This document shows, in pieces, positions 2,971-53,755 of a stretch of 64,000 bases of DNA. The stretch spans positions 1-64,000 of IMG/VR virus record IMGVR_UViG_3300037153_000324. One strand, given 5' to 3'. The position numbers were made by a program, and so were the translations under genes. The stretch is from a virus. Under the pieces are notes generated by a model. The model made no database searches and was not told where the DNA came from. It saw only the letters and a program-made list of their open reading frames with translations. Positions within the stretch are counted from its first letter, which is position 1. Every line of letters begins with the position of its first letter.

Positions 2971-4014
2971 TTATGCCTTGCCCATAAGCTCACGCAATGC
3001 GGCTCTGAGCATTTCGTTCATTTCTTCCTCAGGAAATGATGTTGCCATTCTCTCCACTGTAATTTCCAGCTTTGAGTTTTCGGCGTTGTAATTCACTCCC
3101 CAAGGAATCGAGTTATCTCCGCGTCCCATTCCCATCGTAATATCCCATTTTCGGCTTTCTCCGTGAAGGATATATGCCATCAATGCGAACGTCCGATATG
3201 ACGCAGGAGATAGCATCGGAGAAAACGAAGTGAAATCCACTACTTCGTTTTCCTTTTTCACTCGAATGTACGTGTTTTGCAGGCCGTTATCTTTTGTCTG
3301 CCTATACGTTCCGCGTAGTCGATAGTGAAATACAATTTCACTGTCAACGCCAGCGGATTCGAGAGAGTATGCGACCTTGCAAAGCCAGACATTGAATGCA
3401 TTGACAATTTCAGCGCTAGTTGTTGAAGCGAAACTAACGAGAATGTCCAATGAAATACCTGGAATTGCATCTCGCTTTGTGAATTCCGAATACGGTTTGT
3501 CATCGCCCGATAGCATCATATCGAAGTGAAATTCGTCGCCATCCTCATCGAAACGGAATTTCCGTTTTTCACGAATAGGCGGCACGAATTCCTCTAGTCC
3601 ATGAATTTCGGCCGATTGGAAACCGTTAGCTAGCCAATCCCGCAATTGCGCGAGTGTATAGCCATGCCAATGACTGTTCATATTTAGCAGGAATTGATTG
3701 ATTGCCCTAACGCTAGCTGCTCTGAAATTCGGAGCAACGTTATTTGCGAGGACAGTCGAAACAAACTCCTTTAGTTCCGACCAGTCAATTGAAAATTCCG
3801 GCTCTTTTGTTGCCGGAACGATCATGCCGAATTCACCCGCAACGGGTATGTAATTCGGCTTTGGCTCATTCGGAATTGCCGGGCTTTGGGAATCGAAACA
3901 ATGCTCGCAAAGAGCACCACGAATTCCTTTCTGCCATCCGACCTTGCTACCCGCCAGATATGGCGTTTGGCAAGATCGGCATTTTCCGGCATATCGCGAT
4001 GTAATTAGCTTCAC
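2971..4014 (-). CDS. Zinc-finger N-terminus, possible VWA-like partner of the AAA+ ATPase
   Basis: A 347-residue protein with a GTG start after GAAAGGAAG. Residues about 12-40 have CRSC and CEHC pairs typical of a zinc ribbon. The C-terminal half (ISLDILVSFAST through the LESAGVDSEIVF segment) resembles the divergent VWA-like proteins that phages often encode next to CobS/MoxR-type ATPases, and such an ATPase is the next gene upstream. The VWA assignment is inference: I see no complete MIDAS motif. It lies precisely between inverted repeat A arms. Confidence 0.55.
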   Translation of the reverse strand: MKLITSRYAGKCRSCQTPYLAGSKVGWQKGIRGALCEHCFDSQSPAIPNEPKPNYIPVAGEFGMIVPATKEPEFSIDWSELKEFVSTVLANNVAPNFRAASVRAINQFLLNMNSHWHGYTLAQLRDWLANGFQSAEIHGLEEFVPPIREKRKFRFDEDGDEFHFDMMLSGDDKPYSEFTKRDAIPGISLDILVSFASTTSAEIVNAFNVWLCKVAYSLESAGVDSEIVFHYRLRGTYRQTKDNGLQNTYIRVKKENEVVDFTSFSPMLSPASYRTFALMAYILHGESRKWDITMGMGRGDNSIPWGVNYNAENSKLEITVERMATSFPEEEMNEMLRAALRELMGKA

Positions 4015-4034
4015 AGTGGCTTCCTTTCTTTGTG

Positions 4035-4064
4035 AAATTTAGCCCCTCTGTGAAACCGTGCAAT
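4035..4064 (+). repeat. Inverted repeat A, right arm
   Basis: Partner of 2914-2943; in the 5' leader of the leftward gene 2971-4014. One of two mismatches would be a G-U pair in the gene-sense RNA. Confidence 0.8.
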
Positions 4065-4074
4065 TTCTTTTTTT

Positions 4075-4116
4075 CTGTAAAGCCACTCAATTGAATCCCG
4101 CCGTTTTCTGCCGGGA
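4075..4116 (+). repeat. Inverted repeat B, left arm
   Basis: 42 bases matching the reverse complement of 5800-5842 with four mismatches and one single-base gap. Starts 10 bases after the right arm of repeat A. Confidence 0.8.
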
Positions 4117-4128
4117 GGGAATTACCTT

Positions 4129-5532
4129 TTAGTTACCGTTGAGCGACCGCATATTCTCCTCGAAAACGCGAGTGAAATAATCACGCTCCAAGCGCGTATC
4201 CAACTCGATTCGAACACGACCCATATTCCAACGGTCGAGTGTTGCAGCGTCCAATTTCTCGCGGCCCGTATACTGACGATTTGCTCCGAGTCCGAGTGTA
4301 TTGGCGCAGGCAGTCGCAATGAAATTGCGACTCCGATTTACGAATGCGCCTTTCACCGAATTGTAGAGCTTATCGCCCGCAAGAGCGTTGTTTAGGACGA
4401 GCAACATTCCCGCGTCAGCGGAGTCCATTTCCTCGAAATTGAACACGCCGCCTTGCCCGTAGATAGTGTCGAATTCGGCAGGGATAAAACCGGACAAAGT
4501 GCCGGTTCTATATGCATCGACAATTTCATCCTTCCATTCTGTCAACTCGTCCGAGTCAGACGGAATGGAATTCAGAATTCCAGCGAGCAATTGCGACTGT
4601 GCCATACCCGAGCCAGTGTAACGGCCGAGCAAGTCACCTCTTGTAATTCCGGGTGACATTGCCGTTTCACCGTAGGGCATTTCGAGGTAATCGGCTAGCT
4701 GAGAAAGCAGGGTCGATTTACCCGTACCTTTTGGCCCGACAAGGAAGATCGGCTGACGCGCTTCTGCGAGCAAAAGCACGTAACCGAACATTGCATGAAA
4801 TTCCTTGCCGTTTTCCGGCTTCGTGATGTTGCGCTTTTTCATTACGTCCGATGAAAACGTCACAAAATCGAACTTTGAAATTCCGATTTCATTACGTGCC
4901 TCATCCGGCCAATGCATTGTCATTGCGTCGAGCAATGCATTGGCAGGAATTCCGCGCGGAATCAATTTCGATCCCGCTTCCAACGGGCGCATTCCAATCG
5001 AGTCAATCGACTGAGAAAGCCGATCCCGATTTTCACAGAGAGTACGGGCGCGAATTACACCCGAATAAAACATCTCCCATTCACTGCGCAATTTCACTTT
5101 GCCGCTTGCCTGAGGCGTGGCAGGCTCATCCTCCGGCTCATCCTCGTCCGTAAGCTCGTCCGAGGGTTCGTCCGTAGGCTCATCCTCATCCTCATCCTCG
5201 TCCGGCTCATCCTCGTCCGGCTCATCCGATGAAATTGGGGACGAAATAGGTTCCGAAATCGACCTATCCTGATCTTCGGAGTGTTGCGTCGAAATTGTCG
5301 GATCAAGAATACGAAAGACCCGATGAATTTCATGATGCAGCATTTCATACTGCTCACTCATTGGCTTTGGGATTCGACGGCCATTTACATTAGCCTTGAA
5401 TACCAAAGTCTGAGCAGTAACGAGCGGCTTTAGTGCATCGTAAACCTGCCGCCTTGTCATGCCGCGATTTGCAAGTTCCGCGATCATATGACGATTGGAA
5501 CCCTTACGCCACGTTTTTCTGTTTATAGCCAC
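4129..5532 (-). CDS. CobS/MoxR-type AAA+ ATPase
   Basis: A 467-residue protein. The GTG at 5532 is chosen because GAAAGG lies 9 bases upstream. The N-terminal about 70 residues are basic and helical (HTH-like, MTRRQVYDALKPL). A long Glu/Asp/Pro/Ser linker follows at about 105-150. The C-terminal ATPase domain carries Walker A GPKGTGKST, a Walker B-like FNFEEMDSADA and an arginine-finger region. CobS-like ATPases usually act with a VWA protein as a remodelling pair, and the adjacent gene may be that partner. In the phage the target is unknown. Confidence 0.85.
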   Translation of the reverse strand: MAINRKTWRKGSNRHMIAELANRGMTRRQVYDALKPLVTAQTLVFKANVNGRRIPKPMSEQYEMLHHEIHRVFRILDPTISTQHSEDQDRSISEPISSPISSDEPDEDEPDEDEDEDEPTDEPSDELTDEDEPEDEPATPQASGKVKLRSEWEMFYSGVIRARTLCENRDRLSQSIDSIGMRPLEAGSKLIPRGIPANALLDAMTMHWPDEARNEIGISKFDFVTFSSDVMKKRNITKPENGKEFHAMFGYVLLLAEARQPIFLVGPKGTGKSTLLSQLADYLEMPYGETAMSPGITRGDLLGRYTGSGMAQSQLLAGILNSIPSDSDELTEWKDEIVDAYRTGTLSGFIPAEFDTIYGQGGVFNFEEMDSADAGMLLVLNNALAGDKLYNSVKGAFVNRSRNFIATACANTLGLGANRQYTGREKLDAATLDRWNMGRVRIELDTRLERDYFTRVFEENMRSLNGN

Positions 5533-5568
5533 TTGAATTACCTTTCTGTTTTCGTTCTCTGTCGGATA

Positions 5569-5598
5569 GGACGGCCTCAATAAAGCGGTCGAATGAAA
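5569..5598 (+). repeat. Inverted repeat C, left arm
   Basis: 30 bases matching the reverse complement of 5761-5790 at 27 of 30 positions (core CCTCAATAAAGCGGTCG). All three mismatches would be G-U pairs in the gene-sense RNA. Nested inside repeat B. Confidence 0.8.
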
Positions 5599-5613
5599 TT
5601 CGAAGATTACTGC

Positions 5614-5742
5614 TTACTTAGCGGTCGGACGAACCTTACCCTTACTCGGAATTCCGAGCTTAGCAGACGTGCGATTTGCGTACAGCCTATTCGATGCGAC
5701 AGCCCTATAGCGCTGCCATTGCCTGTCGGATTTGATGAGCAT
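5614..5742 (-). CDS. Small basic protein (42 aa)
   Basis: The only open frame between the arms of inverted repeat C. The ATG at 5742 is preceded by a 16-base leader (plus 5745-5760) identical to the leader before the small gene at 6329-6418. The protein is rich in Lys and Arg with a C-terminal LGIPSKGKVRPTAK tail, suggesting nucleic-acid binding, but no family is recognised. Confidence 0.5.
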   Translation of the reverse strand: MLIKSDRQWQRYRAVASNRLYANRTSAKLGIPSKGKVRPTAK

Positions 5743-5760
5743 AATTTCATTCTCACTTTC

Positions 5761-5790
5761 TTCCATCCGACCGCTTTATTGAGGCCATCC
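5761..5790 (+). repeat. Inverted repeat C, right arm
   Basis: Partner of 5569-5598; begins just upstream of the leader of gene 5614-5742. Confidence 0.8.
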
Positions 5791-5799
5791 GTTTGTGAT

Positions 5800-5842
5800 T
5801 CCCGGCAGAAAAACAGTGGGATTCAAGTGAATGGCTTTACAG
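5800..5842 (+). repeat. Inverted repeat B, right arm
   Basis: Partner of 4075-4116. It encloses the AAA+ gene together with the nested repeat C cassette and directly abuts repeat D at 5843. Confidence 0.8.
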
Positions 5843-5877
5843 TCTCAGACTGCCCGTTCAAACACTCTAAAGCGGAT
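5843..5877 (+). repeat. Inverted repeat D, left arm
   Basis: 35 bases matching the reverse complement of 6223-6257 at 31 positions (core GTTCAAACACTCT with one variant). Encloses gene 5893-6198. Confidence 0.8.
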
Positions 5878-5892
5878 GAAATTGCTAGGTGT

Positions 5893-6198
5893 TTAGCAGT
5901 AGTACCTTCCGCAAATTACATCCTCACCGAATTCCCCAACATACTTGAAAAGTTTGCCGGAAAAGAAAGTCTCAGTGACGATCAAATCCCAACCTCGAAA
6001 TTCAAGATTCATTGGGATAGCTTCGGTGTCGTTCAGGTCGTAAATCTGACCCTTATAGCGGATGAAATCTCTGCCATCCTCACCGGCATCAATTTTCTGC
6101 CAGTCTAGATAGTCGAATTCCTCACGCTCTTTCGCCGTTAGTTCGTCCGCTCGAATTACATTCCGAGGGACATTGTTTGTGATAACGGTAATGCCCAT
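5893..6198 (-). CDS. Hypothetical acidic protein
   Basis: A 101-residue protein with an ATG at 6198 after GAGAGGAAACAAA, itself part of the CCGACAGAG leader element. Acidic, beta-rich, with a segment RYKGQIYDLND and a C-terminal CGRYYC. No domain recognised. The gene sits alone between the arms of inverted repeat D. Confidence 0.65.
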   Translation of the reverse strand: MGITVITNNVPRNVIRADELTAKEREEFDYLDWQKIDAGEDGRDFIRYKGQIYDLNDTEAIPMNLEFRGWDLIVTETFFSGKLFKYVGEFGEDVICGRYYC

Positions 6199-6222
6199 TT
6201 TGTTTCCTCTCTGTCGGATGAA

Positions 6223-6257
6223 ATCCGCTAAAGAGTGTTTGAATGGACAGTCTGAGA
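6223..6257 (+). repeat. Inverted repeat D, right arm
   Basis: Partner of 5843-5877; ends 3 bases before the left arm of repeat E. Confidence 0.8.
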
Positions 6258-6260
6258 AAC

Positions 6261-6287
6261 CCTGCAATTGCACTTGATTGAGCGGCT
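6261..6287 (+). repeat. Inverted repeat E, left arm
   Basis: 27 bases matching the reverse complement of 6454-6480 at 25 positions (core AATTGCACTTGAT). Confidence 0.8.
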
Positions 6288-6328
6288 AACAATTTCAGTT
6301 TATGCGAGCGAAAACCGAGTGAGGATTA

Positions 6329-6418
6329 CTAGGACATTATCCACCGATAGAAGCGGACGTAAGCGTAAACGGCTAGTGCAAGGTAAAGCGTTTCGACTGC
6401 TAGCCAATAAGCGGTCAT
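6329..6418 (-). CDS. Tiny membrane protein (29 aa)
   Basis: The ATG at 6418 follows the same 16-base leader as gene 5614-5742 plus a CCGACAG element. The product is mostly aromatic and aliphatic (WLAVETLYLALAVYAYV) and ends with RFYRWIMS, fitting one membrane span with a positive C-terminal side. It is the only open frame between the arms of repeat E. Confidence 0.45.
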   Translation of the reverse strand: MTAYWLAVETLYLALAVYAYVRFYRWIMS

Positions 6419-6453
6419 TTTCATTCTCACTTTCTGTCGGAGAGTGAAATTGC

Positions 6454-6480
6454 AGCCGCTCGATCAAGTGCAATTACAGG
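6454..6480 (+). repeat. Inverted repeat E, right arm
   Basis: Partner of 6261-6287; the last member of the chain of gene-flanking inverted repeats. Confidence 0.8.
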
Positions 6481-7202
6481 GACGCTACTTGCCCGTAATA
6501 GTATCCGAGGATTCTCGCGACTTATTTGGATTTTCATTGCGGCCCTGACTCGAATTTACCGGGGTAATGTCGGGTAAGCGTAACCGTTGCTTTCACGGTC
6601 AGAGTTTCCGACTAGCCGGGTAAATTACATTCCGGGAGTTATGCGCAGATTTTCCGCCGAATTTCAGGACTGAGGGAATCCGTAGACCCGTTTCCTAACT
6701 GAAATTACGCGAGAATAACCCTCGTGGACTTGCCACGGGATTAGCGTCAAATTTTCATCGGCCGACCACAGAAATCGCAGGTAAATCTATCGCTTTTCGG
6801 AACTACGTCCTACGTGCGTCATTTTGATCCGTTTATGCGTCAATTCGGTGAAATTGTAGGGAAGAGACTCGCTCGATTCCGGCCCGGTATAAACACGGGG
6901 AATTTCACTTTTTATCGGCTACTAGATCGCAATATCGCACGCATCCGAGCGCGTAATCAGATTGCGCCGCTTTAGCGTGAAAAACCGATGTAATTGTCAA
7001 AAATCAATGAGGCACGGCAAACCGTAAATTCCGCGCGGCTGGCATAGTCACAGCGGGGCAAAATCAAGAGGGAATGAGACGACGCTAATTCCAGCGTGAA
7101 AGCGGGAGAAAAATCCTCGCGCACACTCGCACGCCGAAACGCTTGTCCGTCACAAGAGCAGGCTTGCGCCTGTCTCGCCCGTGCCTCGATTTTCAAAGAG
7201 CG

Positions 7203-7225
7203 TAAAATCCGCTTCGCGGATTTTA
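7203..7225. terminator. Perfect hairpin, possible bidirectional terminator
   Basis: TAAAATCCGC (7203-7212) and GCGGATTTTA (7216-7225) form a perfect 10-base stem with a TTC loop; the A/T ends of the stem could act as a short U tract on either strand. Confidence 0.4.
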
Positions 7226-8350
7226 TGGGCAGTCGCAAGGGTTCACAAGGCTTGCCCGGACAGAAAACTCGCAATTTGCGGGAATTTCATTTCAGGGAAG
7301 GTCGATTTTCGGCGTTTTCGCAGAATTGGGCGATTTCTACGGAGCGTTACCGAAATCGGCAACGAAATTTGAGCGTTGTCGGCTTCGGCGACGCTTCGAT
7401 GAAATTGTGCTGTTTTGCAGGGATTTTGCCCCTCTGAAAAAACGAAATTTCACATTTCGACCCCACTAGGTCTAGTGCGGCAGGAATGACGCGACGAATT
7501 CGACCGAATCGACCTGACGCCGTTTCTCGACAATTTCATTGGAACCGGGCTTTTTCCGGTCGGAACGGTTCCAGAATCCCGCCAGGCCGTTTCTCCACAA
7601 TTTCATTCTCCGACCTTACGCGCCCGACCCTAATTCGCCCAAAACGGCGGATGAGGATTCTCGCGCAATTACATTGCAGGGACTCCTCATTGCCCTGTAG
7701 GCAAACACTGAAATTCGGGAACAATGACGCTCTGCCATTCCAACGCCGCTCACCCTAGGACAGTTCTCCGACCCCACGAATTTGCAGTGTTGCCCGTTCT
7801 GAGAATTACATTCGGCTATTCCAGAATCCCTCTCGCGAGAGGCAACAAAATTGCGGTTATTTGAAGCAGGGTGAATTCCCTGTAATCATGCGGTGTTGCC
7901 AAGAATTTCAACAGAATCATTTTCGGCGGTTTAGGAAAATTATACAGTAGACAACTACTCTCTACCTGCCTGCTTTACGATGCCAATTTCATAGAAACGT
8001 CCAAAAACTCCGCTCATACCCCGGCCCAGAGCATGAATTACAAAGCCATTTTTCCACCCATTTCTAGACCTCTTGAATAACGGTTCAATCGACCTAGGGA
8101 TCACCAATTACATCTCCATTTTCCAATTTCAAAAGAATAATCGAAAACCGCCCATTTGCAGGGGTTTTTCATTTGATACCGAACGTCTGTTTGATATCAA
8201 AAATCTATGTAATTCTACCGGATTCTGATGAAATTTGTATGGTTTACAACGGTGAAATTGGCGGGGCCAATATAAACACTAAAGCCCCTTTTTTTTACAT
8301 CTAAAATGTAAAAGAACAACCCCGTTTTTACCCTGTTTTTTTTACATTTT

Positions 8351-8377
8351 CCCATATTATACTTGCTATAACGAAAT
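8351..8377 (+). repeat. Inverted repeat F, left arm
   Basis: CCCATATTAT and CTATAA blocks match the reverse complement of 8471-8497 with about five mismatches. A 23-codon leftward open frame (8366-8437) lies between the arms but has no clear ribosome binding site. Confidence 0.6.
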
Positions 8378-8470
8378 TAGTTTTGACCATTTTTTTTGAA
8401 TAATTCCAATTTCACGATTTGAGCGATTCTCAGGCATTTTTCGGGCTATTTTTCGAACACCTTTTTCAGA

Positions 8471-10174: not shown

Positions 10175-10375
10175 ATGCCGAAGAAAGCCTATTCGAAAGG
10201 CTCCCGTAAGGCACTCTCCGCAATGAAAAAGCGTTACGGAGCCAAGAAGGGCACGTCGATCTTCTACGCGAAATCAAACAAGTACGGCAAGCGAGGAAAA
10301 TCGAATGCCACCAAGGCAAATTCCGTCTACTCGAAAGGCTCGCACCGGGTCAAGAGGAGTCGAAAGCGACGATGA
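10175..10375 (+). CDS. Small highly basic protein
   Basis: 66 residues, strongly Lys/Arg-rich, with AAGGAG 7 bases before the ATG. The central YGAKKGTSIFYAKSNKYGK segment is shared in pattern with the gene at 10506 (YGQGEGTRIFLAKAKEQGK), as is a later SVYxKG motif, so the two are probably paralogues. Charge and size suggest nucleic-acid binding; there is no direct evidence. Confidence 0.65.
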   Translation: MPKKAYSKGSRKALSAMKKRYGAKKGTSIFYAKSNKYGKRGKSNATKANSVYSKGSHRVKRSRKRR

Positions 10376-11103: not shown

Positions 11104-11126
11104 CATAGGTCTATATGTGCTACAAA
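11100..11126 (+). promoter_or_regulatory. Candidate promoter before terminase
   Basis: TTGACA at 11100-11105 and TACAAA at 11121-11126, spacer 15. TTGACA overlaps the stop of the previous gene, as at 495 and 1795. A terminator follows about 40 bases later. Confidence 0.4.
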
Positions 11127-11166
11127 TCAGGTGTCTTGCCTCACTCTCGGGCGGACGTTTCGGGCC

Positions 11167-11195
11167 AGGGGGCGGAGAAATCCGCCCCCTCTTTT
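11167..11195 (+). terminator. Rho-independent terminator
   Basis: AGGGGGCGGA (11167-11176) pairs with TCCGCCCCCT (11181-11190) around a GAAA loop, followed by CTTTT. It excludes the far-upstream in-frame starts for the terminase. Confidence 0.85.
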
Positions 11196-11257
11196 GTTGC
11201 CGGAATGAAAAATCGTTATGCTGCGGATTTCCGCGTAAAGCCCACAGGAAGAAGGCG

Positions 11258-12943
11258 TTGGCCCGCAAAGCAGTAGCCGCAAATCCCAGGCCGAAGAGCA
11301 GAATTTCACCCATTCGCGCACTGTCCAGACCGGACGAGTGGGCGATTGGTATGGGCTTGAGAGTAGATGCACGTCCCTTCAGCCTTGAAGGGCGCGAATA
11401 CGTGCGCCAGGTGATCCGGGACTTCTCTCCCGAAATCGTGATCCCCAAGGCTGCACAGATGGCCTTCACAATTACATTCCTTACCCGCTCCCTTCACTCC
11501 GTGGTCGAGCGGAAGTGGAATGGAATGTATTTGCTCCCGCTCAAAACGGGGGCCGTTCCCTTTGTTCAAGCCAGAATCGACCCGATCATCGAGTCCAATG
11601 CCTACCTCGATGCGAAATTTGCGTCAGTGGACAACCGCCTGCACAAGCAGACCACTGACCGGGTGAACCTCTACATCAGAGGCACCAACATTTCGTCCGA
11701 GGTTCAGGAAGTTCCGGTCGATTTTGAAATTTGGGACGAGCGTGATCGGATGGTGGAAGAGAACCTAGAGGACGCACGTCACCGGATGGACGGATCGCAA
11801 GTCAAGAAGCTGGTGCAGCTTTCCACTCCGACTGTCGATGGTCATGGCGTCTATAGCGACGATGCTTGGCCTCTTTCCGATCAGCACAGATGGGAAATTG
11901 CCTGTCCCGCTTGTGGTCGTTACCAATGCCTGAATTTCGATGACAAGGAATTGGATTACACCAATCTCAAGCTCGGAGACACTGCCGACGAGTGCGTGCT
12001 CGAATGTGCGTACTGCAAATATGCATTTACCGACCTAGAGCGCAAGACCGCAAATGCGACGGGTCGATGGGTCGCTGCAAACCCAAACGGCCTGCTTCGG
12101 GGATATTTCATCAACCAGTTCAATTCCCCAACGCAGTCTTTGTGGGAAATCATGCGTGGCTATTATGCGGGGCAGACAGATCAAAGGAAATTGAAGGCTT
12201 TTTGGCAGCAGAATATGGGCAGGCCGTATTCAGCGCCGGGAGACAGGATCACCGTCGAGCTTCTAGACAAGTGCCGTCTGCGTGGTTATTCCCTCGGTGG
12301 AATTCCAACCTCCTCGATTCATCTCGGAATCGACGTAGGAAATGTAATTCACGTATGGGCGTACATGCAAGATCGTCAGAAGCGAAACTACGTCTGGCAG
12401 GTCAAGCTTTTTCGTGAGTGGAGCCAGTTGGACAAATTCCTTGGCTCGCTCATCTCCTTTGTTGGTGTCATCGACGCGCATCCGGAAAAGTCGAAAGCTC
12501 GCGAGCTTTGCATGAAATATCACGGCAAGCTCTTCATGGGATTCGAGCAAGACCGCGATCAGCAGGGTGAAATTGCGACGTGGGATAACGTGAAGCCACG
12601 TCAGGTGCCGGAAGTGAAGATCGACCGCACTCTCGCTTTCGACACTGTAATTTCACACATGATGAACGGTGCAACCGTCTTGCCTGCCAATGCCCGTGAG
12701 CTTGGCGAGGCTATGCCGATGAAGCCGTGGAATGGGCTGTATCACCATCTGATTCAGCAGGTGCGTGTCGAAGAGGAAAATACAAAAGGACAGTTGATTG
12801 CTCGTTGGAAGCGAAACAAGAACCCTGACCACTGGCATCACGCGATGATGTTCGCGACAGTGGCGCTTTTGAAAAATGCCCCGCTGCAAGTACCTGCGGG
12901 ATTTTCAAAAGCGGTTGGAGGGAGGAGTCTCGTTGGAGCGTAA
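11258..12943 (+). CDS. Terminase large subunit, GpA-like
   Basis: 561 residues from a TTG at 11258, chosen because the frame further upstream runs through a terminator and AGGAAGAAGG lies just before this codon. The N-terminal ATPase region has AAQMAFT where GpA proteins have a Q-G-K-T loop, a variant. Motifs EIWDERDRM (Walker B-like) and LVQLSTPTVDGHG (coupling) follow. A zinc-ribbon pair CPACG and CAYCK is characteristic of the GpA branch, and the C-terminal nuclease region includes IHLGIDVG. It pumps DNA into proheads. Confidence 0.85.
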   Translation: MARKAVAANPRPKSRISPIRALSRPDEWAIGMGLRVDARPFSLEGREYVRQVIRDFSPEIVIPKAAQMAFTITFLTRSLHSVVERKWNGMYLLPLKTGAVPFVQARIDPIIESNAYLDAKFASVDNRLHKQTTDRVNLYIRGTNISSEVQEVPVDFEIWDERDRMVEENLEDARHRMDGSQVKKLVQLSTPTVDGHGVYSDDAWPLSDQHRWEIACPACGRYQCLNFDDKELDYTNLKLGDTADECVLECAYCKYAFTDLERKTANATGRWVAANPNGLLRGYFINQFNSPTQSLWEIMRGYYAGQTDQRKLKAFWQQNMGRPYSAPGDRITVELLDKCRLRGYSLGGIPTSSIHLGIDVGNVIHVWAYMQDRQKRNYVWQVKLFREWSQLDKFLGSLISFVGVIDAHPEKSKARELCMKYHGKLFMGFEQDRDQQGEIATWDNVKPRQVPEVKIDRTLAFDTVISHMMNGATVLPANARELGEAMPMKPWNGLYHHLIQQVRVEEENTKGQLIARWKRNKNPDHWHHAMMFATVALLKNAPLQVPAGFSKAVGGRSLVGA

Positions 12944-37710: not shown

Positions 37711-38106
37711 ATGTACGATCTGGCTGTATCGAACCACGGCGACTTGCTATTTTCAGCCGCCCGCGATCTTCAAGGTAAGAGTGGAATTCCCTTGTTCGAT
37801 CAGCAGATTGTCTCTCGCCTGCGCATTCGACGTGGAACATGGATTTACGACTTGACCAAAACGCTAGGAAGCCGCATTCCTGAAATTCTGAACAGGCCGC
37901 GTGAAGAAGCGGCGTCGATGATTCCCGCGTTTGTTCAAGAAGCACTCAGAGAGATGGACGATGACATTACGATCATCGAGATTGTTACATCCTCAGATTT
38001 CAACACTGTGAACGTTCAAATTCATTACACGGCCATTGTGCCCGGTGTTCAAGAGCCGCAACTTGTAAATGTCGTAACCGTTCCCTTCGTAATCGGGAGT
38101 GAGTAA
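37711..38106 (+). CDS. Baseplate wedge protein, gp25/W-like
   Basis: 131 residues. DLLFSAARDLQGKSGIPLFDQQIVSRLRIRRGTWIYDL followed by a helix and a C-terminal strand pair fits the gp25-like (DUF2634-type) wedge component, which seeds sheath assembly. GGAGGACGAG precedes the ATG. Confidence 0.7.
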   Translation: MYDLAVSNHGDLLFSAARDLQGKSGIPLFDQQIVSRLRIRRGTWIYDLTKTLGSRIPEILNRPREEAASMIPAFVQEALREMDDDITIIEIVTSSDFNTVNVQIHYTAIVPGVQEPQLVNVVTVPFVIGSE

Positions 38107-39527
38107 TGACCCTGACTGACTTCTCGCTGTACCGCACCCGAAATCAAATTGTGGGCGAGATGCTGGCCGAGCTTCAGGCTGCAATTCCTGATATTTACAT
38201 GGGCGATGACGGAATTATCCGTATCATCTATGAAATTGAATCGGGTCAGTTGGAGAATGTCTTTCTCGCCAATCAGCTTCTTGCCGAGGATATGTGGGTG
38301 CAGAGTGCGTCCTTGCAGGCGCTTGGAAAGTTTGGTGAGCAATACGGAATTTCACAGCGGGAAGGATCGCGTTCCACAGGACAGTTGATTTTTACAGCGG
38401 CCGGTGGAGAGACAATTCCGGCAGGTACGCAAGCTGCGCATGATCCTGGCTTTGGCCTCGATCCTGTCTACTTCGAGAGCACGGATACGGCCGTGGTGCC
38501 TGACACGGGTACTCCTGTTGCTCCGGTTGTTGCTGTAAATGCAACGGCAGGAAATTTGAACGGTTTGTACGAATACGTCGTTACGTATCTGTCTGCTGCG
38601 GGTGAAACACTCCCCTCAGTGGAATCGGCTGCTGTCAATCCGGTTTCGCAACAAGTGAATCTCACCAACATTCCGCTTGGTGGGCCTGGAACGATTGGAC
38701 GGAGAATTTACAGGGACAAGAATGGTGCTGGTATCTATCGTCGGGTAACTGAAATTGCAGATAACACGACGACGATGTTTACCGACAATGTGACGGATAC
38801 CACTGTCGCGTCTAGCTCGTTGGCTCCTTCGGTCGATACTGCACATGCAATTCAGGTAGCAGCGCGAGCCGTTGATCCCGGAACCGAAGGCAACGTCATC
38901 ATTGGGTCAATCACTGAAATTGTATCAGGGCCAGGGTCGATCAGCGCAGTCAACAACCCCGTTGCTTTTGCTGGCGGGAGTGACAGTGAGGACTCAGACG
39001 ATTTCAGAGCACGAATTTTGGACTTCCTGCAAAACCCGCAGACAGGATCAGTTGGCGACTTGAAAGCATGGGCCGAGGAAGTGGAGGGTGTCGGGACAGC
39101 AACCGTCATCGCAAACGACAACTTGGGTACGCCGACAAACGGCCATGTTACCGTTCGCATTGCAGGCCCAAATGGTGAAATTCCTGACGCAGATGTACAA
39201 GCGGACGTTTTGGAAGCACTGCAAGAGCAGGATATTGCCAACATCACAATTCATGTTGGCACGTTTACTCCCGTTGTGCAGAATGTGACGGTTGACGTGA
39301 CGACTTCAGGGACGTATGTTCTCGCTGACGTGACTCCTTCTGTGCAGCAGGCCATTGCAGATTACATTACTACTTTGCAGGTAGGAGACACTCTCAGAAT
39401 TTCAGGTATTGTCGATGCAGTATTCGGATTGGTTGGCATTCTCGATGTAACAGTTACGTCACCGACGAGCAATCAGACGGTTGCTGCAATGAGTAAGTTA
39501 GTTCCTGGGACAATTACAGTAACGTAG
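38106..39527 (+). CDS. Baseplate J-like protein with inserted FN3/Ig domain
   Basis: 473 residues. The frame shows the gpJ order: N-terminal helix with VGEMLAELQ, QYGISQREGSRSTGQLIFTAAGGETIPAGTQ, later GGSDSEDSDDFRARILDFLQNPQTGSVGDLKAWA, then VTVRIAGPNGEIPDADV. Between about 135 and 240 an extra domain (NGLYEYVVTYLSAAGETLPS... IYRDKNGAGIYRRVTEI) looks like FN3/Ig. It forms the baseplate wedge core. Confidence 0.85.
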   Translation: MTLTDFSLYRTRNQIVGEMLAELQAAIPDIYMGDDGIIRIIYEIESGQLENVFLANQLLAEDMWVQSASLQALGKFGEQYGISQREGSRSTGQLIFTAAGGETIPAGTQAAHDPGFGLDPVYFESTDTAVVPDTGTPVAPVVAVNATAGNLNGLYEYVVTYLSAAGETLPSVESAAVNPVSQQVNLTNIPLGGPGTIGRRIYRDKNGAGIYRRVTEIADNTTTMFTDNVTDTTVASSSLAPSVDTAHAIQVAARAVDPGTEGNVIIGSITEIVSGPGSISAVNNPVAFAGGSDSEDSDDFRARILDFLQNPQTGSVGDLKAWAEEVEGVGTATVIANDNLGTPTNGHVTVRIAGPNGEIPDADVQADVLEALQEQDIANITIHVGTFTPVVQNVTVDVTTSGTYVLADVTPSVQQAIADYITTLQVGDTLRISGIVDAVFGLVGILDVTVTSPTSNQTVAAMSKLVPGTITVT

Positions 39528-39537
39528 GAGACAAAAC

Positions 39538-41073
39538 GTGGCAACAAGTGGTGAACCACCTTCAGTAATAGTTCCGCCGAGTATCGACGGCGATCCTCTA
39601 GCTGGTACAACGCTCTACGGCAATGTTGGTGATTGGGCTGGAACCCCAACTCCTGTTTTTGACTATCAGTGGAAGCGGAACGATCAGCCAATTTCAGGTG
39701 CGACGTTACACACATATGTACCAGGAACTCTTGATGTAAACACAACGCTTACGCTTGAAATTCGAGCAACAAATGACTACGGAGTTGCTTTTGCTTCATC
39801 GACTGGACTTTACATTACCAATCCGGCACCTGTGATTCAGAATAATCCTGTTATCAGTGGATCGCAGTTCATTGGAAATACACTGACGACGACAAGCGGC
39901 GATTGGTACAACATTCCTCACGGGTATGCATACCAGTGGAAGCGTGACGGGGCAGATATTCTCGGAGCAACAAGTACGCAGTACGTGCTTGTCTCGGCTG
40001 ATTCAGGTCATACAATTACATGCCAAGTGACCGCTACGAACATGGGTGGATCTGGCGTTGCAGTTTCCAATGGTATTTCAGCAATTACACCCAGTTCTGC
40101 ACCCGTGAATGTTGGCTTGCCTGATATCACTGGCAACCCGAATGTAGGCGCACTTCTTATGGCGCACAATGGGTCATGGGCAAATGGCCCATATGCATTC
40201 ACGCACCAATGGAAACGCGACGGAGTAGTAATTCCTGGCGCGACGGGTAGCAATTATCTTGTTACTGCTGCTGACTTTGGTGGAAGAATCACATTGACTG
40301 TAACTGCGATCAATGTCATTGGTTCAACAATCGCAACATCACAGCCAACTAGCGAAGTAATTATCGAACAGCCGGTATCTCCCGGATTTCAGCCGCAGTT
40401 ACCGCTTGAGCTTCCACCTTCCGATGCTGAATTCGCGTTCATGCAGGAAGAGCCGCCTGGTTTCTTCCCCGAAAACCAAGATTCCAACTTTGGTTTTGTA
40501 ATTCGAAAGATGTGGAGCGATCAGCTTCAGCAAAGCATCGACCAGCAACAACTTCTTTACGGCGAACGCTTTATCGACACGTCAACTGAATTTCTGGACG
40601 AGTGGGAAAAAGACGTTGGTTTGCCACCCGGACGAAACTTGACAGTTACTCAACGGCGTGCGCTCGTCAAATCTCGACTTCGAAAGACCGCGTTCACACG
40701 GACGATGCGGCGGCAAATCGTGGAGGATTTTCTTACCACGATTTACATGCAACCAATTCAGCTATTGCCGCCGGGTGTGCCACTCGTTGCGGACGGTGTG
40801 CCAATCGGTGCTGAGCCTGGTGCGGTGTCTGATTTGTATTCGATCACCGAAATTGTGGAGCAGTTTCACTATGTTGTTGGACTTGCTCCGACAGTCTCCA
40901 TTGACGAGGTTTTGTTGACGCGAGAATTGAATCGAGTTACGCCTGCTGGAATTTCTTTCGACTTCGCGCATTTTGAAATTTTCTCGATCTACCAGGAGTA
41001 TGCCACGTATCAGGAGCTTTACGATGCGTGGGCAACCTACGATGAAATTTTCTCGAACATCTACTCCTACTAG
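39538..41073 (+). CDS. gpI/YmfQ-like baseplate protein with three Ig-like domains
   Basis: 511 residues, GTG start. Three repeats of about 90 residues at the N-terminus each contain YQWKRDG.xI.GAT..xY (positions about 45, 135 and 230), typical of bacterial Ig-like modules. The C-terminal 200 residues (QQQLLYGERFIDTSTEFLDEWEKDVGLPP, VKSRLRKTAFTR) match the tail protein I/YmfQ type that follows gpJ. The Ig repeats probably bind the cell surface. Confidence 0.75.
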   Translation: MATSGEPPSVIVPPSIDGDPLAGTTLYGNVGDWAGTPTPVFDYQWKRNDQPISGATLHTYVPGTLDVNTTLTLEIRATNDYGVAFASSTGLYITNPAPVIQNNPVISGSQFIGNTLTTTSGDWYNIPHGYAYQWKRDGADILGATSTQYVLVSADSGHTITCQVTATNMGGSGVAVSNGISAITPSSAPVNVGLPDITGNPNVGALLMAHNGSWANGPYAFTHQWKRDGVVIPGATGSNYLVTAADFGGRITLTVTAINVIGSTIATSQPTSEVIIEQPVSPGFQPQLPLELPPSDAEFAFMQEEPPGFFPENQDSNFGFVIRKMWSDQLQQSIDQQQLLYGERFIDTSTEFLDEWEKDVGLPPGRNLTVTQRRALVKSRLRKTAFTRTMRRQIVEDFLTTIYMQPIQLLPPGVPLVADGVPIGAEPGAVSDLYSITEIVEQFHYVVGLAPTVSIDEVLLTRELNRVTPAGISFDFAHFEIFSIYQEYATYQELYDAWATYDEIFSNIYSY

Positions 41074-41085
41074 CGAGGAAGTCGA

Positions 41086-41883
41086 ATGCTGACAAGTCCA
41101 CGTCGAGTAATTCCCTATCCGAATCCGGATCGTACAGACCATCCGGATATTCCAACGCACATTCTCAATCTTGTAAATGCACTGGAATTGGATCTGGTCT
41201 ATGCTCAGGGAACGCACGCTTCTCGTCCCGCTAACCCTGGTATTGCCGGTGGCTACTTGTACTGGGAAACAGACACGAACCAATTGTTTTACTGGGATGG
41301 TGTAGCATATACTCTTGTTTCAGGAATTTCACCTACACTAATCGACGCACCGGGCGATTTGATTGTTGGAACTGCCGATAATACTCCTGCGAGACTAGCT
41401 GTAGGATCACTTGGGCAGGTGCTAACACGAATTTCATCTGCTCCGTATGTCGGCTGGCAGGCGCTCCCGGCTGCGCCCGTTGCGCCGGGGACAGAACTTG
41501 ACTACAAGCAGATCACGGCCACAACCGCGCAGATCAATGCGACGACCGAAGCGACTGCCGTTGCGGTCATTACCGGGAACTCGGTGACATACGACGGCAC
41601 GAAGGTCAGGGTCGAGTTCTTCGCCCCGATGGGTATCAGCCAAGCACAGATGACCGTGACGTTCGTTCTCTTGCGGGATGCAACCGTCGTCGGGCAGGCC
41701 AAGAAACAGGTGCCTGCGGCCGGAGATACCGGGATGTATTTCGTGATGCTCGATACACCGTCAGCGGGTGCCCACGTCTACAAGGTTTCGCTGTTCGTCA
41801 GCGTCTCGGCCCATCAAGTCTCAGCCGGTGTGGGCGGCTCAGGGAATCTCGCGCCCGCCTTTCTGCGAGTGACGAAGGTATGA
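41086..41883 (+). CDS. Tail fibre protein 1 with foreign-looking C-terminus
   Basis: 265 residues. The first about 80 residues (MLTSPRR, IPYPNPDRTDHPDIPTH, YWETDTNQLFYWDG) are shared with the next gene. From about 41,461 the coding sequence becomes clearly GC-rich and contains no AATT at all over about 420 bases, unlike the rest of the window. A recently acquired C-terminal receptor-binding domain on a conserved attachment domain is the likely reading. Confidence 0.7.
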   Translation: MLTSPRRVIPYPNPDRTDHPDIPTHILNLVNALELDLVYAQGTHASRPANPGIAGGYLYWETDTNQLFYWDGVAYTLVSGISPTLIDAPGDLIVGTADNTPARLAVGSLGQVLTRISSAPYVGWQALPAAPVAPGTELDYKQITATTAQINATTEATAVAVITGNSVTYDGTKVRVEFFAPMGISQAQMTVTFVLLRDATVVGQAKKQVPAAGDTGMYFVMLDTPSAGAHVYKVSLFVSVSAHQVSAGVGGSGNLAPAFLRVTKV

Positions 41884-53422: not shown

Positions 53423-53755
53423 ATGACATTGCCACTTCTAACGTCCGCTCAGCTTGTCGAGGAAATTGCCGAGGATACGGGCTATTCCAAGTCCGATGTG
53501 CGGCATTTCATGGACTCGCTGGCGCGGGCGATCACGGATCATGTTTCCGATTGTGAGAGAGTCAGGATTGGGAACCTCGTCCAGATCGAGCCGAAGTTGA
53601 AAAAAGCACAGAAAAAGCGGATGGGTCGGAATCCGGCTACAGGTGAGGACATTGAAATTGCTGCCAAGCCAGCGAGTGTGCGCGTAGGTGTTCGGCCACT
53701 CGCTGGCTTGAAGGACGCGATGCCGTCCGTGCAGAAGCTTAGGAAGCGAGTCTGA
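53423..53755 (+). CDS. HU-family nucleoid protein
   Basis: 110 residues with AAAGGAAATAAACGCG before the ATG. Helices SAQLVEEIAEDTGYSKSDVRHFMDSLARAI followed by the DNA-binding arm RMGRNPATGEDIEIAAKPASVRVGVRPLAGLKDA, the classic HU pattern. Bends and coats DNA, and may assist replication or packaging. Confidence 0.88.
   Translation: MTLPLLTSAQLVEEIAEDTGYSKSDVRHFMDSLARAITDHVSDCERVRIGNLVQIEPKLKKAQKKRMGRNPATGEDIEIAAKPASVRVGVRPLAGLKDAMPSVQKLRKRV

Follow-up and report, generated by a model that had tools for sequence, protein, structure and literature searches.

The window, the whole 64,000-nt stretch of DNA analysed here, is part of a 74,373-base virus record (G000) of a contractile-tailed phage, and the short word AATTWCA is spread through all of it. 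The evidence fits best with AATTWCA being a real, selected, genome-wide element. We give about an even chance to the reading that it is the form, or dialect, in which this phage carries a recognition element of double-stranded DNA specific to its lineage; the copies would be candidate nucleation sites of a phage nucleoid-like protein. The gene set of the phage includes the large terminase, portal, sheath, baseplate, DnaB, primase, a DnaE-type polymerase and UvsX/RecA.

We counted 280 AATTWCA sites in the window (150 on the plus strand and 130 on the minus strand) against 19.8 expected from dinucleotides, a 14-fold excess. AATTTCA contributed 185 sites (88 plus, 97 minus) and AATTACA 95 (62 plus, 33 minus), and these were the top two when all 7-mers of the window were ranked by over-representation. 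The whole 74,373-bp contig held 206 and 116 of them, respectively.

1–64,000, both strands: AATTWCA sites, 280, coding and non-coding (counts)
5,594–8,414, no strand assigned: densest run of AATTWCA/TGWAATT, 31 sites, mostly non-coding (exact count and positions)

The preliminary description had reported genome-wide hyperabundance, with 31 heptamers in 5,594–8,414, 14 in 38,101–41,100, and a G or C before 25 of the 31 non-coding sites. Our recount gave identical numbers and the hyperabundance is real. Its excess of 20- to 45-fold presupposed equal base use, where dinucleotides give 14-fold and codon shuffles 6-fold. Its density of one site per 91 bases holds for 5,594–8,414 as a local peak and not as a general value: the densest 2-kb stretch of the contig (6,251–8,250) has 24 sites against a mean of 8.7. 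Across the window the count per 2 kb ranged from 4 to 20, with no region lacking sites, and mean density was similar in coding (4.1/kb) and intergenic (5.4/kb) DNA. The motif-dense region also contains three successive segments of about 220–415 bp (window 5,569–5,790, 5,843–6,257 and 6,260–6,481), each bounded by 28–35-nt inverted repeats that are 89–93% complementary.

The AATT-rich, TTAA-poor composition could inflate such counts, and the preliminary description had named a codon-keeping shuffle that reproduced the count as what would undo its claim. In 200 codon-preserving shuffles of the called genes the mean was 41.5 (sd 5.6) and the maximum 63, against 249 observed, a 6-fold excess measured from a baseline that is raised because the shuffles already contain motif-driven codons. 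Together with the dinucleotide expectation (19.8 against 280), these shuffles refute the idea that composition, codon use or dinucleotide bias produced the excess, and we regard its probability as negligible. The codon-shuffle z in six family genomes was 35–53.

The phage family and its tree were defined by the terminase large subunit, and terminase searches found 19 and then 80 viral contigs.

11,117–12,943, plus strand: terminase large subunit (phrog_675, E = 8.4e-76)

The members are uncharacterised soil-type bacterial viruses that carry the word every 110–230 bases throughout their genomes. An AATTWCA excess of at least five-fold was present in 71 of the 79 loci with clearly related terminases. 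Three of the eight loci below that level (L062, L065 and L082) use another word, L035 and L071 have little or no AATTWCA excess, and three more distant relatives (37% identity) are without it. L035, with a terminase 60% identical, has a contig GC of 36% and no motif excess, possibly after moving to another host and losing the word.

The word drifts along the phylogeny into lineage dialects (ATTTCA/ATTACA, TTTTCA and TTGTCA). Among full contigs, G000, G003, G006 and G007 use ATTTCA/ATTACA, G002 uses TTTTCA plus ATTTCA, and G004 uses TTTTCA plus TTGTCA. TTGTCA plus TTTTCA is the dialect of G005 and of a 70.8-kb contig that lies in the bin of an Acidobacteria genome (G001), and in a quick terminase tree the TTGTCA users group together. 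The core shared by the family is an A/T tetramer with no TpA step (AATT, ATTT, TTTT) or TTGT, and in most cases a CA/TG step comes after it. A minus-strand gene pair of the window (2,971–5,580) encodes an ATPase of the AAA_5 (MoxR/CobS-like) type and a protein with weak similarity to DUF7192. The pair was present in the ATTTCA/TTTTCA phages G000, G002, G003 and G006, and no counterpart was detected in G004, G005 or the G001 contig.

Single sites are conserved more than matched control words. At equal flank identity, dialect words were conserved in 70% of cases against 50% for composition-matched permuted words, and they exceeded the control in all 16 pairs of contigs, which are about 79–90% identical; some pairs share a contig, and the signal may include amino-acid constraint. 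For words foreign to the dialect (TTGTCA in AATTWCA phages, for example), conservation was at the control level. The site is 6–8 bp long. No second half-site was found in the flanks, as expected for a monomeric reader, and the lack of information in the flanks speaks against an IHF-like bipartite site or inverted half-sites.

The sites also exclude one another. The pair correlation pooled over seven phages was 0.21 at 0–20 bp, 0.44 at 20–40 bp, 0.69 at 40–60 bp and about 1 beyond, so that close pairs are depleted five-fold within 20 bp and two-fold at 20–40 bp, and are at expectation above 60 bp. Intervals were correspondingly even, with a CV of 0.62–0.82 in six genomes compared with 1.03–1.07 for control word sets (300 random sets per genome), and showed no helical phasing (Rayleigh z below 1 at 10, 10.5 and 11 bp). 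When self-repelling words were sought by a motif-blind scan, most complete genomes gave back their own dialect: G003 yielded AATT (101 close pairs against 274.5 expected), G004 TGAAA and G005 TGACAA. The same scan of the outgroup, two unrelated phages and host contigs returned nothing comparable. With 620 sites, a mean gap of 113 and a CV of 0.53, AATT itself was the repelling unit of G003; exclusion was weak or absent in the partial contigs G008, G009 and G010. The pair-exclusion statistic offers a general route to functional genome-wide words that needs no prior motif.

The repulsion is dialect-specific and not an effect of AT content. Near AATTWCA, AATT fell to 0.54, while AAAA (0.99) and ATAT (1.07) did not, nor was TATA excluded, which rules out local AT-content compensation as the cause. 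Near TTGTCA it was AAAA that fell (0.55), with AATT at 1.01.

Exclusion was alike for same-strand, convergent and divergent pairs in the seven phages, and this favours a local effect on double-stranded DNA over Chi, primase or RNA signals. A strand-specific element, namely a Chi-like recombination signal, a primase start site or a transcription signal, would find its partners in the primase, RecA/UvsX and PD-(D/E)XK nuclease that the phages encode. We consider it very unlikely, given that exclusion is equally strong whether two sites share a strand or not and that both orientations are abundant. For Chi, whose mark is orientation-specific action, both exclusion and density were independent of orientation, an indirect test; the density of known Chi sites is also far below that of the phage word. 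Among the roles that the preliminary description had proposed, an architectural protein fits best, and the strand-specific recombination tag loses ground for the reason just given; packaging or self-recognition by a nuclease may also be the role.

Molecular drive would dispense with function altogether: biased repair, gene conversion or replication error would repeatedly make the word. The literature on HIP1 and on uptake sequences has considered such drive (PMC4390886, PMC1939737), and biased conversion can also produce apparent conservation. However, drive acting site by site predicts no exclusion over 60 bp, where close pairs are depleted five-fold, and more accumulation under weak constraint, where coding and intergenic loads are similar. 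We regard it as unlikely.

The word could also be a modification or self-mark, recognised by a host or phage methyltransferase or by a nuclease that spares marked DNA. Restriction pressure on the phages is evidently heavy, because many palindromes are nearly lost, and a mark needed in each stretch could yield even spacing. Against this, a crude motif scan of eleven contigs found no conserved family with a [DNS]PP[YFW] or PCQ/ENV methyltransferase signature, and the tolerated variation (AATT in G003, many right flanks) is looser than at typical methyltransferase sites; a mark of this kind appears quite improbable. As for the avoidance itself, TTAA occurred 0 times against about 176–199 expected, with restriction-type words extremely avoided (window; contigs G002–G010). 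GGACC/GGTCC occurred 0 times in the full contig against 125 expected from dinucleotides, and about 23 palindromic hexamers were absent although the expected count of each exceeded 8. Palindromes are lost to a comparable extent in Xylophilus phage Lumi. The candidate host genome does not show this pattern of avoidance and shuns the restriction-type words of the phage to a lesser degree.

With the host of the phage only a candidate, the strongest rival is that the word belongs to the host (HIP1-like or DNA-uptake-like) and entered the phages in the course of long co-evolution, in the way that uptake sequences enter Pasteurellaceae phages. Accumulation of host words in phages is documented (PMC6776037), and uptake sequences too have dialects and reported even spacing, the latter from Karlin et al. 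as cited in PMC1939737. The host of the window phage rests on a candidate, as a family member was found in one bin only by a GTDB contig scan, and the same bin was the sole match among 396 Acidobacteriota genomes. Over 400 kb of that bin, observed/expected ratios were 0.3–1.6 for TTGTCA/TTTTCA, 0.8–1.1 for ATTTCA and 0.7–2.0 for ATTACA, i.e. no enrichment. The densest SAATTWCA among 297 Acidobacteriota was about 0.6/kb compared with 3.0/kb in the phage, and uptake words in Pasteurellaceae phages, at their quoted saturation, are about six times sparser than the word is here. A HIP-like host motif was thus not found in Acidobacteriota (candidate host contigs, ratio about 1; 297 genomes), and we consider a host origin of the word not very likely. 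The Acidobacteria bin has a repeated word of its own, ATTTTGGA, with 78 copies against 1.6 expected in 140 kb (L120–L126, G001 contig C31), and the overlapping frames of the copies suggest repeat arrays.

If, as we prefer, the word is read by a phage nucleoid-like protein, three DNA-binding proteins core to the family are the obvious candidates.

Contig 70,203–70,574, just beyond the window, plus strand: MerR/BldC/RacA-like winged helix with a GRP tail, candidate binder (orthologs)
Contig 70,638–71,546, just beyond the window, plus strand: SAP/Rho_N-type protein, charge +64, candidate binder (orthologs)
53,423–53,755, plus strand: HU/IHF-family histone-like protein, third-choice candidate binder (PF00216, E = 8.9e-18)

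We favour the winged helix, with its conserved C-terminal GRP (AT-hook-like) tail, as the candidate binder. In BldC, each protomer recognises AATT by way of a minor groove that is narrowed, together with a C-G pair downstream, and RacA makes contact with a YpG step (PMC5859096). The BldC mode resembles an A/T tetramer plus CA, and it is this resemblance, rather than a test, that puts the winged helix first. Its AlphaFold core has a pLDDT of about 90, and its best Foldseek matches include the RacA-DNA and BldC-DNA complexes, with probabilities of 0.9–0.99 and weak E values near 0.1. Pfam matches were weak as well (HTH_17 at best E = 1.5e-4 and MerR at 8e-4, in 2–3 of 6 members), and the protein of the window phage matched only HTH_19 (E = 0.017). 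The adjacent basic protein has 302 residues; its N-terminus is SAP/Rho_N-like, its core is confidently modelled as helical and its tails are basic. It gave no match in PDB profile and fold searches. The HU homologue scores 64.8 bits against the Bac_DNA_binding profile PF00216 (cutoff 22), and its PDB relatives are SPO1 TF1, HU and A104R. The basic protein and the HU homologue possibly share in binding.

The winged-helix and basic proteins were present in all nine contigs that reach the region, where the winged helix always ends in GRP, and neither had a detectable homologue in the motif-free outgroup, whose contig may be incomplete. Since the change of dialect coincides with phylogeny, this covariation amounts to essentially one event and singles out no binder. 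In G009, which has both candidate genes, enrichment is nevertheless weak and exclusion not significant. AATT exclusion is strongest in G003, although its basic protein is without RGRP hooks, which does not support the AT-hooks of that protein as the sole determinant of AATT. A polymerase scan of the viral contigs returned nothing. A ResIII/XPB-type helicase gene (contig 67,629–69,839; L083:3629-5839) is split by an intein with an HNH endonuclease; its orthologs in relatives, at 444–511 aa, have no room for an intein. A 66-aa protein of charge +24 (window 10,175–10,375), with relatives in three other family members, is a possible virion DNA-condensing peptide.

In the nucleation model, selection would keep at least one site in nearly every 100–200 bp, genic or not. 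Each site would nucleate the phage-encoded protein, which would cover or bend about 60 bp on either side. Within that reach a further site would be dispensable or disfavoured, adding nothing and decaying, while long gaps would be refilled by selection. The whole genome would thereby be tiled, for compaction, protection from nuclease or silencing. Density, exclusion range, similar coding and intergenic load and freedom of orientation would all follow from such nucleation. The broader claim, that this is virus-encoded, sequence-specific chromatin in which the genome is rewritten, synonymous sites included, and the landing word co-evolves with the nucleoid protein into dialects, we put a little short of even. 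To our knowledge, decades of work on HIP1 and other hyperabundant words have not settled what they do. The present case concerns a 70-kb replicon of about 90 genes, with three obvious candidate binders, natural dialects and a measurable 60-bp exclusion range, and what reads a genome-wide word and why it is evenly spread can be tested directly with a handful of purified proteins.

Several known systems resemble parts of this picture. Phage HU-like proteins such as SPO1 TF1 have their counterpart in the HU homologue of the family, with TF1 among its best PDB matches, but we know of no genome-wide hyperabundant word for TF1. In BldC/RacA-type MerR-like winged helices a monomer reads an AT-rich minor groove (AATT) plus C-G/YpG and forms nucleoprotein, whereas BldC binds tandem 9-bp repeats at promoters and the phage sites avoid closeness (PMC5859096). 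The phage winged helix is placed with them by weak profile and fold matches, and its reading of DNA sites is putative.

HIP1 (GCGATCGC) and the alternate HIPs of cyanobacteria are likewise short hyperabundant words whose lineage variants replace each other, but they are palindromic, bacterial, present at 300–2,700 per Mb and tied to methyltransferases (PMC4390886). The phage word is phage-borne, at about 3,000 (SAATTWCA) to 9,000 (TTKTCA) per Mb, and mostly non-palindromic: AATTWCA and TTKTCA are not palindromes, although AATT, the core in G003, is. Hyperabundance in a cellular genome was not seen in the candidate host contigs or the 297 Acidobacteriota, nor a methyltransferase signature in the crude scan.

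Uptake sequences (USS/DUS) share hyperabundance, non-palindromic form, both orientations, dialects and reported even spacing (PMC6776037, PMC1939737). Pasteurellaceae phages accumulate those of their hosts, saturating near 750 per Mb (PMC6776037), so the preliminary description was too broad in knowing of no phage with such an element; those sequences, though, are about six times sparser than the phage word and are the host's word. Haemophilus uptake sequences are an example of a hyperabundant host word carried by phages. Against the ceiling of about 750 per Mb for USS/DUS in phages, the phage word is at least fourfold denser; it also has a 60-bp exclusion and is not enriched in the candidate host.

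Stoperators of Cluster A mycobacteriophages are alike in that a phage protein reads many asymmetric sites in its own genome, with specificities that vary from phage to phage (PMC9283540). Stoperators are 13 bp long, number about two dozen per genome, and are mainly intergenic and oriented with transcription (PMC9283540), in contrast to the hundreds of orientation-free sites, inside genes too, of the phage word. Its sites divide 150/130 by strand though nearly all genes lie on one strand, and coding density is about that of intergenic DNA. Literature searches found no equivalent phage element, and a phage-lineage word at such density and spacing appears to be new.
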